Shown here: piece after piece, positions 58,652 through 64,000 of the stretch
Layout of the letters: each line of letters starts with the position of its first letter
Position numbering within the stretch: the stretch's first letter is position 1
Origin: Oscillospiraceae bacterium
GTDB lineage: Bacteria > Bacillota > Clostridia > Oscillospirales > CAG-272
Reading direction: 5' to 3'
Length of the DNA stretch: 64,000 bases
NCBI GenBank assembly: GCA_015064415.1
Contig: SVSG01000002.1
Location: forward strand, 1-64,000
Translations under genes and position numbers: made by a program
The notes under the pieces: generated by a model
Databases searched by the model: none
What the model saw: the letters and a program-made list of their open reading frames with translations, nothing else
What the model was told of the DNA's origin: nothing

Positions 58652-59674
58652 TTATCTCTGCACGCGGCCGCTGGCGTCGCCGCCGGCGAGGTTCTCGACC
58701 TCGGCGACGGACATCATGTTGTAGTCGCCCTCGATCGAGTGCTTGAGGCAGCTTGCCGCCACGGCGAACTCGATGGTGCGCTGGGGGGCAAAGTCGTTGA
58801 CGAGAGAGTAGATGAGGCCTGCACCGAAGCTGTCGCCACCGCCCACGCGGTCGACGATGTGCATCGAATACTTCTTGCTGAAGTACGCGGTGCCCTCGGT
58901 GTAAAGCATAGCGGACCAGTCGTTGTCGTTGGCAGATTTGCTCTCACGCAAGGTGATGGCCACGCCCTTGAAGCCGAAGCGGTCGGTCAGCTTTTTTGCC
59001 ACTGAGATGTAGCCGTCGCGGTCAAGCTTGCCGCCGTAGATGTCGGTGTTGTCGGCCTCGATGCCGAACACGTCCTTGGCGTCCTCTTCGTTTGCGATGC
59101 AGTAATCGACGTAGGTGCACAGCTTGCCCATGACCTCGCCTGCCTTTTCCTTGCTCCAAAGCTTCTTGCGGTAGTTGAGGTCGCAGGAAACGGTGATGCC
59201 GCGTGCCTTGGCGGCCTTGAGGGCCTGCTCGGTGATGGTAGCCATATTGTCGGAAAGTGCGGGGGTGATGCCGGTGAAGTGGAACCATTCTACACCCTCA
59301 AGGATAGCATCCCAGTCGAAATCGGCGGGATCGGCCATCGCGATCGCAGCGTAGGCGCGGTCGTAAATGACCTTGGAGGGGCGCTGGCTGGCACCCTTTT
59401 CACAGTAGTAGATGCCCACGCGCTCACCGCCGCGGACGATCTTCGAGGTGTCCACGCCGAACTTGCGCAGGGAATTGACGGCCATCTGACCGATCTCGTG
59501 CTTCGGGAGCTTGGAAACGAAGGCGGCATCCACGCCGTAGTTGGCAAGGGAAACGGCCACGTTTGCCTCGGCACCGCCGAAGGTGGCCTCAAACTTTTCT
59601 GATTGCACAAAGCGCAGATACCCCTCGGGGGCAAGGCGGAGCATCAGCTCGCCAAAGGTAACGACTTTTTTCAT
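58652..59674 (-). CDS. kdgK: PfkB-family sugar kinase, probable 2-keto-3-deoxygluconate kinase
   Basis: VVTFGELMLRLAPEGYLRFVQSEKFEATFGGAEANVAVSLANYG; DRVGGGDSFGAGLIYSL. Confidence 0.85.
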   Translation of the reverse strand: MKKVVTFGELMLRLAPEGYLRFVQSEKFEATFGGAEANVAVSLANYGVDAAFVSKLPKHEIGQMAVNSLRKFGVDTSKIVRGGERVGIYYCEKGASQRPSKVIYDRAYAAIAMADPADFDWDAILEGVEWFHFTGITPALSDNMATITEQALKAAKARGITVSCDLNYRKKLWSKEKAGEVMGKLCTYVDYCIANEEDAKDVFGIEADNTDIYGGKLDRDGYISVAKKLTDRFGFKGVAITLRESKSANDNDWSAMLYTEGTAYFSKKYSMHIVDRVGGGDSFGAGLIYSLVNDFAPQRTIEFAVAASCLKHSIEGDYNMMSVAEVENLAGGDASGRVQR

Positions 59675-59836
59675 ATTTTTCCTCCAGAACCCGTAAAAAC
59701 GGGGAATTCAAAATCATTATAACACCTTTTTTTTGATTTGTCCATAACTTTTTTGATTTGTTTGATGTCATTTTGCACTATCTTGCTCTCGGACGCGCGT
59801 ATTTGAAATTTTATACCGAAAGATCAGGGTTTGTGG

Positions 59837-59866
59837 TTGACACGCCCTTGGAAATTGTGTTAGAAT
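59837..59866 (+). promoter_or_regulatory. Promoter of the first beta-helix/PHP gene
   Basis: TTGACA-18 nt-TAGAAT; resembles 62246-62274. Confidence 0.6.
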
Positions 59867-59927: not shown

Positions 59928-62180
59928 ATGTTGCCATTGCCTAAGGGTTATTATGCCGTTGCGGCAGATTTTGAAAATGCCCCGAAGGATCAATTTACAT
60001 ACAAGGGCGTGTGCTATGCCGTTGAGGAGGGCGTGAATCTGTTTGCCACAGCACCGGAGGCGGATGCCGTTGCCAACGAGATCCCCGAAACTGTGCTGGA
60101 GGGCTTAAATTACGAGAAATTTGACGCCCCCGTGCTGCTGTTTTCCGTGGGTACGCACCGCATCGATAACCTCAACCCCACAAGCTCGCGCTATCTGCTG
60201 GGTGAAAAGGCGGGCGTGAACCCAAATCTCACTCCCGCGCAATTTGGGGAGCTGCCGCCCCTGAACCCCGAGCGCGCCGATGCCGAAAGCGAGTCGATCA
60301 TGTACGGCGGCAACGCTGCGGGGAACATCCGCCCGCAGGATGCCTCGGTGGAGCTCTTGGTGATCGACGGCTTCTATAACCAAAAGGCGCGGCTGTTCGA
60401 CCGCCGCATCAATGCCACGGGTAAGTGCTTTGTGGCCCAGAAAAATATCGTCTATATCGGCCCGTGGGGCAAGCTGCACAACCTCTTTTCGGGCAGCCGC
60501 CAAGGGTACGATCTGCAGCGTGAGGTGCTTTTACAAAACGTGCGCTTTGAGCACTACGCGGGCAAGGGCCACGGCGGCGTGTTCGCGTATATGTCCACGC
60601 AAAAGGCCACGTTTGACAATCTTGTCTTCCACGATACCGACGTGGTGTTCGGCTTTACCGAGATCTCGCGCAACACCTCGGCCTGCCCCGCCAATCTGGA
60701 ATGCGCGGAGATCTGTATCAAGGATTGCTATTTCGGCGAGATGCGCGGCGAGAACGGCGTGATGGTCAATTTGCAGCAGCGCCCCGATCGAAGCGTGAAA
60801 ATGACGGTAGAGCGCTCGGTGTTCCGCAACGCATCGCTTGTCGGTGACTCGCCCTTGAATTTCCATATGGCAAACGAAAATTGCGCCCTTACGGTGTCGG
60901 AGTGCCTGTTTGAGGACACCCGTGGCGCGGATGCCGCGATCACCCTCTTTGACGGGGAGGGCGCCGTGCTGAAGGGGTGCGAGCTCAAGGGCTTTGCGGC
61001 AGAGTGCCGCACCCAGCCCTCCTGCGTGCGAGAGGCGCCTGCCTCCATCCTTTTGCAGGAGGAGGATTTTGAAAGCGGTACCGAGGACAGCCACGTGATC
61101 GTCGGCACGAAGCATGCGGATTTCAGCGATCTTGCCGCCTGCTATGAGGGCTGTAACGTCTATCGCGGCGACCAGCACGTGCACACCTCGTGCGGCGGGC
61201 GCAGTGACGGCAAATTCCCGATGTCGGATTGGGTGGCGCGCATGGACGAGCTCGGCGTGGATTTCGTGGCGGTCGTGGACCACCGCCAGATGCGCGGATT
61301 TTTCCTGCCCGAATGGAATGAGGAGCGCTTTATCATGGGCTCCGAGCCGGGCACGAGTTTTTTGGAGCCCCACGGCTGTACGCACAGCAGCGGCTTCCAT
61401 TACAATATGCTGGTGCCGCATCCGTACGGCCTTGCGATGATACTGGCCAATTTCCCGGAATTTGAATTTCGGGGTGACGAGCTGACGGGTACGTTCAGCT
61501 ATCCCAAATTCACCCGCGAGCGCTTTCTCGAGCTCAGCGAGTACGTTCACTCGATCGGCGGTATGATGGTGCACGCGCACCCCAAGATGATCATGGCCGC
61601 CGACGATCCGCTTGCCTACTATTTCGGGGAGCATTCCTTCATCGAGACGGTGGTCGGCTCCTACGCTACGGCGTATTCCTTCAAGAGCCATCAGCTCTGG
61701 GTGGATATTCTGGCGCGCGGCAAGCACGTGTACGCGTCGGTCGGATCGGATTCGCACCGCGATCCGAGCAACGGGGCGGTGGCGACCTTCTATTCAAAGG
61801 AGCGTCACGTTCGCACCTTCTTCCCCCAGATGCGCGCGGGCAACTTCACCGCAGGCGCCGTGGGCATTCAGATGTGCGTGGACGGTCAACCGATGGGCAG
61901 TGAGCTTGCCTATCGCGAGGGGCAGGTGCTGAAGATCCGCGTGGGCGATTTCTTCGCGCCCGTGTTGAAGGACGACAACGCGTACGAGCTGCGCGTGTAT
62001 AGCGACAAGGGATTGGTGTATTCCTCGCTGTTTGACGGCAAGGAGCCCCAGTATCTTGCCATCAGGGCACAAGCGCGCGCGTTCTACCGCGTGGAGGTGC
62101 TGGATCTGGTGGCGCACCGCCGCATTGCCGCGGGCAACCCGATCTGGTTGGATAAAGAAGAAACGGCGGAAGCCGAATGA
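59928..62180 (+). CDS. Beta-helix-like N-terminal domain fused to a PHP-type metal-dependent hydrolase domain
   Basis: Repeated short beta/turn units in the N-terminal half; PHP motifs DQHVHTSCGGRSDG, DFVAVVDH, GSEPG, VHAHP, GSDSH; RBS aaaggaggaaga. Confidence 0.75.
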   Translation: MLPLPKGYYAVAADFENAPKDQFTYKGVCYAVEEGVNLFATAPEADAVANEIPETVLEGLNYEKFDAPVLLFSVGTHRIDNLNPTSSRYLLGEKAGVNPNLTPAQFGELPPLNPERADAESESIMYGGNAAGNIRPQDASVELLVIDGFYNQKARLFDRRINATGKCFVAQKNIVYIGPWGKLHNLFSGSRQGYDLQREVLLQNVRFEHYAGKGHGGVFAYMSTQKATFDNLVFHDTDVVFGFTEISRNTSACPANLECAEICIKDCYFGEMRGENGVMVNLQQRPDRSVKMTVERSVFRNASLVGDSPLNFHMANENCALTVSECLFEDTRGADAAITLFDGEGAVLKGCELKGFAAECRTQPSCVREAPASILLQEEDFESGTEDSHVIVGTKHADFSDLAACYEGCNVYRGDQHVHTSCGGRSDGKFPMSDWVARMDELGVDFVAVVDHRQMRGFFLPEWNEERFIMGSEPGTSFLEPHGCTHSSGFHYNMLVPHPYGLAMILANFPEFEFRGDELTGTFSYPKFTRERFLELSEYVHSIGGMMVHAHPKMIMAADDPLAYYFGEHSFIETVVGSYATAYSFKSHQLWVDILARGKHVYASVGSDSHRDPSNGAVATFYSKERHVRTFFPQMRAGNFTAGAVGIQMCVDGQPMGSELAYREGQVLKIRVGDFFAPVLKDDNAYELRVYSDKGLVYSSLFDGKEPQYLAIRAQARAFYRVEVLDLVAHRRIAAGNPIWLDKEETAEAE

Positions 62181-62245
62181 TCCCCTGCGCGGGTGCACGC
62201 ACGTGCACCCGCGCATTTTAATTTGATAAAATATCACAAAAAGGG

Positions 62246-62274
62246 TTGACACGTCCGAAATGCTATGTTAAAAT
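62246..62274 (+). promoter_or_regulatory. Promoter of the second beta-helix/PHP gene, with adjacent palindrome AAAGTGCACTTT
   Basis: TTGACA-17 nt-TAAAAT followed by ggcactaaagtggccaaagtgcactttt. Confidence 0.65.
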
Positions 62275-62330
62275 GGCACTAAAGTGGCCAAAGTGCACTT
62301 TTATTCTATATTCCAATGGAGGAAATTGCT

Positions 62331-64000
62331 ATGCTGCAGCTGCCCAAGGGGTACTATGCCGTACAGTCGGACTTTGAAAATGCCCCCAAGGATCAATTTA
62401 CATACCGCGGTGTGACCTATGCCGTCGAAGAGGGCGTCAACCTGTTTGGCACGCCGCACGAGGCCTGCGCCGCCGCCACCGAGACCCCCGACACCGTGCT
62501 GGAGGGCCTGCCCTACGAGAGCTTTGCTTACCCCGTATTGCTCTTTTCTACGGGCGAGCACCGCATTGATAAGCTGGGGATCACGGCACCCTGCATCTGG
62601 CTTGGCGAAAAGGCGGGCATCTCCCCCAACCTGCCCGCGCCGGAGAAGACCGAGGCACCCCTTTTCAACGAGGAGCGCGCCACGGAGGAAACCGAAAGCG
62701 TCATTTACGGCGGTTACTGGTACGGTGCCATGCGCATCACCGGCCCCGCTGTGCCGTTTTTCATGATCGACGGCTTCTATATGAAGAAATCCCGCTTCTA
62801 CGACAGCCGCCCCACGGGCGAGTGCGACACCGAGATCGTGGTGCGCAACGTCTATCATACCTCCCCCTGCCTGCACACCATCTATTCCTTTGACGGTCTG
62901 CGCGCCGAAAGCCCGATGCACCGCAGCGTTCTTTTTGAGAACGTGAGACTGCAAAAGGACTTCGACGAGCTGGGCTACGGGCGTCTGTTTATGTCCTTTG
63001 CCTCGAACAAGGTCACCTTCCGTAATCTTTGCATCGACGGCACCACCCAGCTCTTTGGCTTTACCACCATTTCCCGCGCCTCCAGAAACCTGGCAGGGAA
63101 CAGTGAGCTTAGCGAATGCACCTTTGAGGATTGCTATATCGCGGGCCTTGGCGGCGAGAACGGCATTGCCTTCAGCTGTATGGGCGCCGTAGAGCGCGGC
63201 TTTGTGATGCGCGCCACGAACTCCGTTTTCAAGAATGCGGCAAGAGTGGGCGAGGCCGCCTTCCAGCCCAATTTGGAGAACGACAAGTGCCGTCTCACGT
63301 TGACGGACTGCTATGTGATCGACACGCGCGGCGGCGCAAAGGCCGCTGTGGCCATTCACGGTAAGGGCGAGAACGTCCTGCTTGAAAATTGCACGGTCGA
63401 GGGCTATGAGACCGAGGTCATGCACGTGACCCCGCCCCCCACGAAGGCACCCGATTTTGTGAAGAGCACCCGTCGCTCCCGCATGACCAAGACCGCTGAC
63501 CCGCACCGCGTGATCGGTACGGACAAGGCGGATTTCACGGCGTTGGACGCGTATTACGAGGGCTGTAACCCCTATTACGGCGATCTGCACACCCACTCGA
63601 ACAGTGGCGGAACCAGCGACGGTAAGACGCCGCTTGCCGATTGGGTACCCAAGATGGATGAGCTTGGCATGGACTTTGCCGTGATGGTCGACCACCGTCA
63701 GATGCGCGGCTACTTCCTGCCCGAGTGGGATGACACCCGCTTCCTTTACGGCACCGAGCCCGGTGCAAGCTTTACCGACCTTGCACACCTGCCCAACAAC
63801 ACCTTCCACTATAATATGATCTTCCCGCACAAGTACGGCCTTGCCATGGTGCTGGCGAACTTCCCCGAGTTCAAGTTCCAGGGCGACGAGCTGACCGGCT
63901 CCTTCACCTATCCCAAGTTCACCAAGGAGCGCTTTATCGAGCTGAATACCTACATCCGCTCGATCGGCGGTATGCTGGTGCACGCGCACCCAAAGCTCCT
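62331..64000 (+). CDS. Second beta-helix/PHP fusion paralog, truncated by window end
   Basis: MLQLPKGYYAVQSDFENAPKDQFTYRGVTYAVEEGVNLF...DLHTHSNSGGTSDG...MVDHRQMRGYFLPEW...VHAHP; absent from the ORF track because it is open at the edge. Confidence 0.75.
   Translation, partial: MLQLPKGYYAVQSDFENAPKDQFTYRGVTYAVEEGVNLFGTPHEACAAATETPDTVLEGLPYESFAYPVLLFSTGEHRIDKLGITAPCIWLGEKAGISPNLPAPEKTEAPLFNEERATEETESVIYGGYWYGAMRITGPAVPFFMIDGFYMKKSRFYDSRPTGECDTEIVVRNVYHTSPCLHTIYSFDGLRAESPMHRSVLFENVRLQKDFDELGYGRLFMSFASNKVTFRNLCIDGTTQLFGFTTISRASRNLAGNSELSECTFEDCYIAGLGGENGIAFSCMGAVERGFVMRATNSVFKNAARVGEAAFQPNLENDKCRLTLTDCYVIDTRGGAKAAVAIHGKGENVLLENCTVEGYETEVMHVTPPPTKAPDFVKSTRRSRMTKTADPHRVIGTDKADFTALDAYYEGCNPYYGDLHTHSNSGGTSDGKTPLADWVPKMDELGMDFAVMVDHRQMRGYFLPEWDDTRFLYGTEPGASFTDLAHLPNNTFHYNMIFPHKYGLAMVLANFPEFKFQGDELTGSFTYPKFTKERFIELNTYIRSIGGMLVHAHPKL

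Follow-up and report, generated by a model that had tools for sequence, protein, structure and literature searches.

A cluster of four beta-helix–PHP fusion proteins in a gut-type Clostridia genome, with a possible role in intracellular glycan-ester hydrolysis

The window (the whole stretch of DNA analysed) covers the first 64 kb of a contig of 151,758 bases and ends within a cluster of four paralogous genes, P1–P4, two of which start in the window while the other two lie downstream of it (Table 1). A preliminary description of the window had recognized two adjacent paralogous ORFs, the second of them cut by the window end. Both ORFs are present, and the suggested extension downstream revealed P3 and P4 on the contig; the tandem arrangement proposed for the first two copies is confirmed, and P2, P3 and P4 are 45–51% identical to P1. 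The proposed size class of ~770 aa was not retained, since P1 is 750 aa long: its ATG is preceded by the Shine-Dalgarno sequence AAAGGAGGAAGAGTTTATG, with AAAGGAGGAAGAGTTT standing before this start, and the start of a longer 771-aa ORF falls within the -10 box of a promoter-like site. No signal peptide was visible on inspection of the N-termini, in agreement with the intracellular location suggested earlier. Between P2 and P3 we noticed by eye a 142-aa BspA-type leucine-rich-repeat-like fragment (contig 64684–65112; L008 7685–8113), perhaps a remnant gene.

Table 1. Features of the P1–P4 locus (window positions, unless marked as contig or amino acid positions)
Feature	Position	Strand	Remarks
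PfkB / 2-keto-3-deoxygluconate-kinase-like kinase	58655..59674	-	340 aa; divergent from P1; best match, kinase half of NF041633
Promoter-like TGGACA-17-TATAAT	59716..59744	-	11/12; ahead of divergent kinase; consensus match only
Promoter-like TTGACA-18-TAGAAT	59837..59866	+	11/12, TG before -10; ahead of P1; consensus match only
P1 (copy 1)	59928..62180	+	750 aa, ATG 59928
P1, beta-helix	aa 1-365
P1, linker with DxH	aa 366-410
P1, CehA/McbA-type PHP domain	aa 411-640
P1, C-terminal beta-sandwich	aa 641-742
Hairpin, 13 pairs, with T-rich tail	62186..62215	+	terminator-like; after P1
Promoter-like TTGACA-17-TAAAAT	62246..62274	+	11/12; ahead of P2; consensus match only
P2 (copy 2)	62331..64000	+	P1 architecture; cut by window end; ends at contig 64595; 754 aa
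P3	contig 65560-67857		full copy downstream of window
P4	contig 74376-76655		full copy downstream of window

Each of the four genes is preceded by a sigma-70-like promoter match (10 to 11 of 12, by consensus only), and hairpins follow P1, P2 and P4; on these grounds P1–P4 look like separate transcription units. A comparison of the upstream regions for a shared operator yielded a sole long common word, TAAAATATCACAAAA, which stands ahead of P2 and P3, the closest pair of paralogs. No Rfam model matched at gathering score.

The assignment of the divergent neighbour as a KdgK-like PfkB kinase agrees with its best match (Table 1). The interval between P3 and P4 holds genes for an AraC-type regulator (minus strand), a BNR_2 protein, a DapA/NanA-family protein, an L-fucose isomerase (FucI; 989 bits to PRK10991) and an L-ribulokinase-type FGGY kinase, the last four of which lie on one strand together with P4. 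The sugar-catabolic setting supposed for the locus is thus borne out by nearby FucI, FGGY kinase, DapA-family and KDG-kinase-like genes. The neighbours listed for several separate relatives include GH2, GH39, GH20 and GH78 proteins, AraA-like isomerases, FGGY kinases and an aldose epimerase, and xylose-isomerase-like TIM barrels occur near relatives, directly preceding the gene in L011, L013, L024 and the stand-alone L096. These neighbourhoods have no one pathway in common. A link to fucI was observed in no genome but this one; the gene is present in 176 of 290 genomes of the same bacterial family, where fusions are rare, and co-occurrence with FucI was rejected as a functional clue because the gene is too common. 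Directly downstream of the cluster lies a gene for a secreted, repetitive protein of 2726 aa (L009 988–9168). Also downstream, an agmatine-catabolism-type cluster (L009 12023–16516; contig 89022–93515) was recognized by eye, with genes resembling those for carbamate kinase, agmatine deiminase, an amino-acid antiporter and ornithine/putrescine carbamoyltransferase.

The structure of P1 was modeled with AlphaFold2 from a 16-row alignment of P1 and its relatives. The resulting model (pLDDT 89.3, pTM 0.87) comprises a right-handed beta-helix, a PHP domain and a beta-sandwich in one chain, as expected for the beta-helix–PHP fusion that had been described, and the beta-helix modeled alone reached a pLDDT of 89.8. 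In Foldseek searches, the middle part of P1 matched EndoQ and the PHP domain of PolIII, while the helix matched AlgE6, PL6 and tailspike depolymerases when taken within the P1 model and PfbA, AlgE4, PL6 and Pel9A when taken alone. Prediction and Foldseek thus agree on a parallel beta-helix. In the models the fold of the helix is clear and its subfamily is not, because the TM-scores of the helix alone were near 0.3. Searches of PDB sequences gave no credible relative, and no Pfam model matches the helix family above threshold.

The PHP part of P1 is closest to the CehA/McbA family (NF038032), to which it aligns over the whole 315-position model (E 6e-21, 75.2 bits; residues 433–763 of the 771-aa ORF). 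The scores of P1, P3 (69.7 bits), P4 (67.5 bits) and the relative L011 (78.7 bits) stay below the family cut-off of 80 bits; E-values go down to 5e-22, and stand-alone relatives of ~350 aa match the same model. Phosphoesterase models score far below NF038032 on this part, and with Pfam PHP (PF02811) P1 and P3 reach 13.1 bits (E 0.12) and 15.6 bits, respectively, below the gathering score of 26.4. The set of metal-site residues announced in the preliminary description is complete: the PHP fold carries the ligand set HxH, H, E, H and DxH, and the motifs HxH, VDH, E, HAHP (HPHP in P3) and DSH are conserved in all four copies, with no sign of degeneration. Eleven metal-site-type residues do not vary in any of the 56 relatives compared, fused or stand-alone: H417, H419, D427, D451, H452, E473, H491, H551, E573, D608 and H610. 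In the linker, D387 and H389 of a further DxH (window 61086–61094, P1 aa 387–389) are invariant in 21 of 21 fused proteins, and the motif is also present in the nearest stand-alone group; an extra metal or a structural role is possible. For the characterized enzymes CehA and McbA the substrates are carbamate esters rather than phosphoesters, and their activity depends on histidines including an HxH pair (PMC8292978). The domain adjoins a known enzyme family, which cannot be said of the whole protein.

The fusion is more than chance: GTDB genomes yielded 14 relatives, and proteins of this architecture turn up again in both the bacterial family and the order. The source MAGs of the relatives include those from goat rumen and caecum and roe deer caecum. 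The fused forms group in one clade (SH-aLRT 97), and, judged from the sequences, the fusion arose once; the nearest stand-alone enzymes have a DxH-containing linker before the PHP domain, as the fused forms do. In the tree of full-length forms, P2 pairs with P3 and P1 with P4. Two genomes of the same genus have one fused copy each plus a stand-alone form, the others have none, and none of the plasmid records searched encodes a relative of the stand-alone form. Conservation is distributed unevenly along the proteins. The mean identity among P1–P4 is 61% in the PHP domain and 34% in the helix coils, and the invariant columns across 21 full-length proteins number 47 and 4, respectively; a second mean for the coils (residues 123–365), the least conserved part, is 31% against 61% in the PHP part. 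With the PHP domain far better conserved than the coils, the PHP part is the most probable seat of catalysis, and the variability of the helix is what one would expect of a module that sets specificity.

With the helix alone as the query, 285 genomes from the same family yielded, in addition to the fusions, seven large ORFs (E 1e-14 to 3e-24). All seven contain a GDSL/SGNH domain above the Pfam cut-off, with CE2_N above cut-off in five and weaker in two. The helix precedes the esterase in five of these ORFs and follows it in two. The seven N-termini resemble signal peptides, with the reservation that the start called for L127 is uncertain. Alignment of the PHP-fused with the CE2-fused helices by hhalign gave a probability of 99.6% (E 2.7e-24, 355 columns), and P114, R116, E122, D147, G148, N173, R198 and R206 are common to both. 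CE2_N and SGNH domains are absent from P1–P4 and present only in the helix homologues. CE2 domains also accompany the helix in a second family of the order, where two SLH-domain surface proteins carry it without a recognized hydrolase domain; the presence of the helix is thus no proof of an esterase partner. Both SLH proteins are large and contain tandem helix copies (L153 1–5202, minus strand; L154 2313–7592, plus strand). A secreted 1743-aa protein (L113 1914–7142, minus strand) combines a CehA/McbA domain and an F5/8-type C domain with a helix-like N-terminus, which was rejected as a homologue of the P1 helix at a profile probability of 0.1%.

Mainly because one recognition-type helix is joined to two unrelated hydrolase folds, CehA/McbA-PHP and SGNH/CE2, we give an even chance to the reading that P1–P4 are intracellular metal-dependent glycan-ester hydrolases (de-acylases) whose helix binds an oligosaccharide. 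The multinuclear metal site of the CehA/McbA-type PHP domain would activate water for the cleavage of an acetyl, carbamoyl or similar ester in an imported oligosaccharide or glycoside, which the N-terminal helix would present as a glycan-recognition module. With helices that differ among the paralogs, the four copies could serve different decorations, and the de-esterified sugars might feed the neighbouring FucI, FGGY kinase, DapA-family aldolase and KDG-kinase-like genes. What we infer from these comparisons is that the chemistry is that of an esterase, that the substrate is a glycan, that the helix has the role described and that the neighbouring pathway is supplied. Against this reading stand the NF038032 score below its cut-off, the varying neighbourhoods, the low TM-scores of the helix and its occurrence in SLH proteins; none of the substrate-characterized relatives is close to P1–P4.

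The preliminary description had pointed to phosphoester chemistry; in that reading the PHP domain would be a phosphatase or phosphodiesterase whose substrates are sugar phosphates or glycans with phosphodiester links. Members of the PHP superfamily are mostly phosphoesterases, the best Foldseek matches of the domain are EndoQ and PolIII, and sugar kinases are neighbours; however, CehA/McbA, a group of carbamate-ester hydrolases as far as studied, comes nearest among curated families, with phosphoesterase models far lower, and the helix partner in the sister proteins is a CE2 esterase, which makes phosphoester chemistry unlikely here. The uronate substrate that went with it is not supported either, as the KDG-kinase was not seen beside other members and the helix is elsewhere fused to CE2 esterases. 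The main catalyst could instead be the helix, as a lyase, epimerase or glycosidase, with the PHP domain exerting a second activity on the product. This we consider quite unlikely: the fold is similar to that of PL6, PL9, AlgE and depolymerases, R116, E122, N173 and R206 are common to PHP-fused and CE2-fused helices, and the SLH proteins manage without a recognized hydrolase, but the coils are the least conserved part, and at no position from 63 to 386 do 18 or more of the 21 sequences share a Lys, His or Tyr, whereas PL6, PL9 and AlgE use Lys/His/Tyr centres; an Arg-based mechanism is conceivable. In a further reading the substrates would be not glycans but small natural carbamates, amides or phenolic esters, such as plant compounds and conjugates. 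This would suit the carbamate substrates of CehA/McbA and the rumen and caecum origin of relatives' MAGs, habitats rich in plant compounds, but leaves the helix and the sugar-gene neighbours without a role, and appears very unlikely.

Beyond glycan-ester hydrolysis by P1–P4 themselves, we tentatively propose, at somewhat less than even confidence, that the beta-helix family provides mix-and-match glycan recognition for esterases of two unrelated folds, with SGNH/CE2 working outside the cell and CehA/McbA-PHP within it, and that the intracellular form is a new family of metal-dependent carbohydrate esterases. The searchable literature and libraries held nothing on point for PHP with beta-helix or for PHP with polysaccharide utilisation, and such a kind of enzyme is not described there. 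If the proposal is true, the CehA/McbA family, known from pesticide breakdown, would have a natural function in the sugar metabolism of the gut, and the beta-helix would be defined as a module indicative of glycan esterases; function becomes testable for proteins that now fall below the PHP, Beta_helix and CehA/McbA thresholds.

Among known systems, the PHP phosphoesterases (EndoQ, PHP domain of PolIII) share the PHP fold and metal-site motifs with P1–P4, which are nevertheless closer in sequence to CehA/McbA, the Pfam PHP match of P1 being below threshold. PL6, PL9, AlgE C5-epimerases and phage depolymerases have the same right-handed beta-helix fold, but with low TM-scores and ~10% identity, and, judged by sequence columns, the helix of P1–P4 is without their conserved Lys/His/Tyr centre. 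The CE2 (CE2_N + SGNH) proteins carry a homologous helix with the same conserved residues, but are secreted, and their SGNH catalytic fold is unrelated to PHP. The carbaryl and carbofuran hydrolases CehA/McbA combine, like P1, a PHP-type domain with a C-terminal beta-sandwich over the whole model, and their HxH and later His/Asp residues are also conserved in P1–P4; unlike them, P1 scores just under the family cut-off, and P1–P4 have an N-terminal beta-helix, a sugar-catabolic setting and a gut-type Clostridia host.
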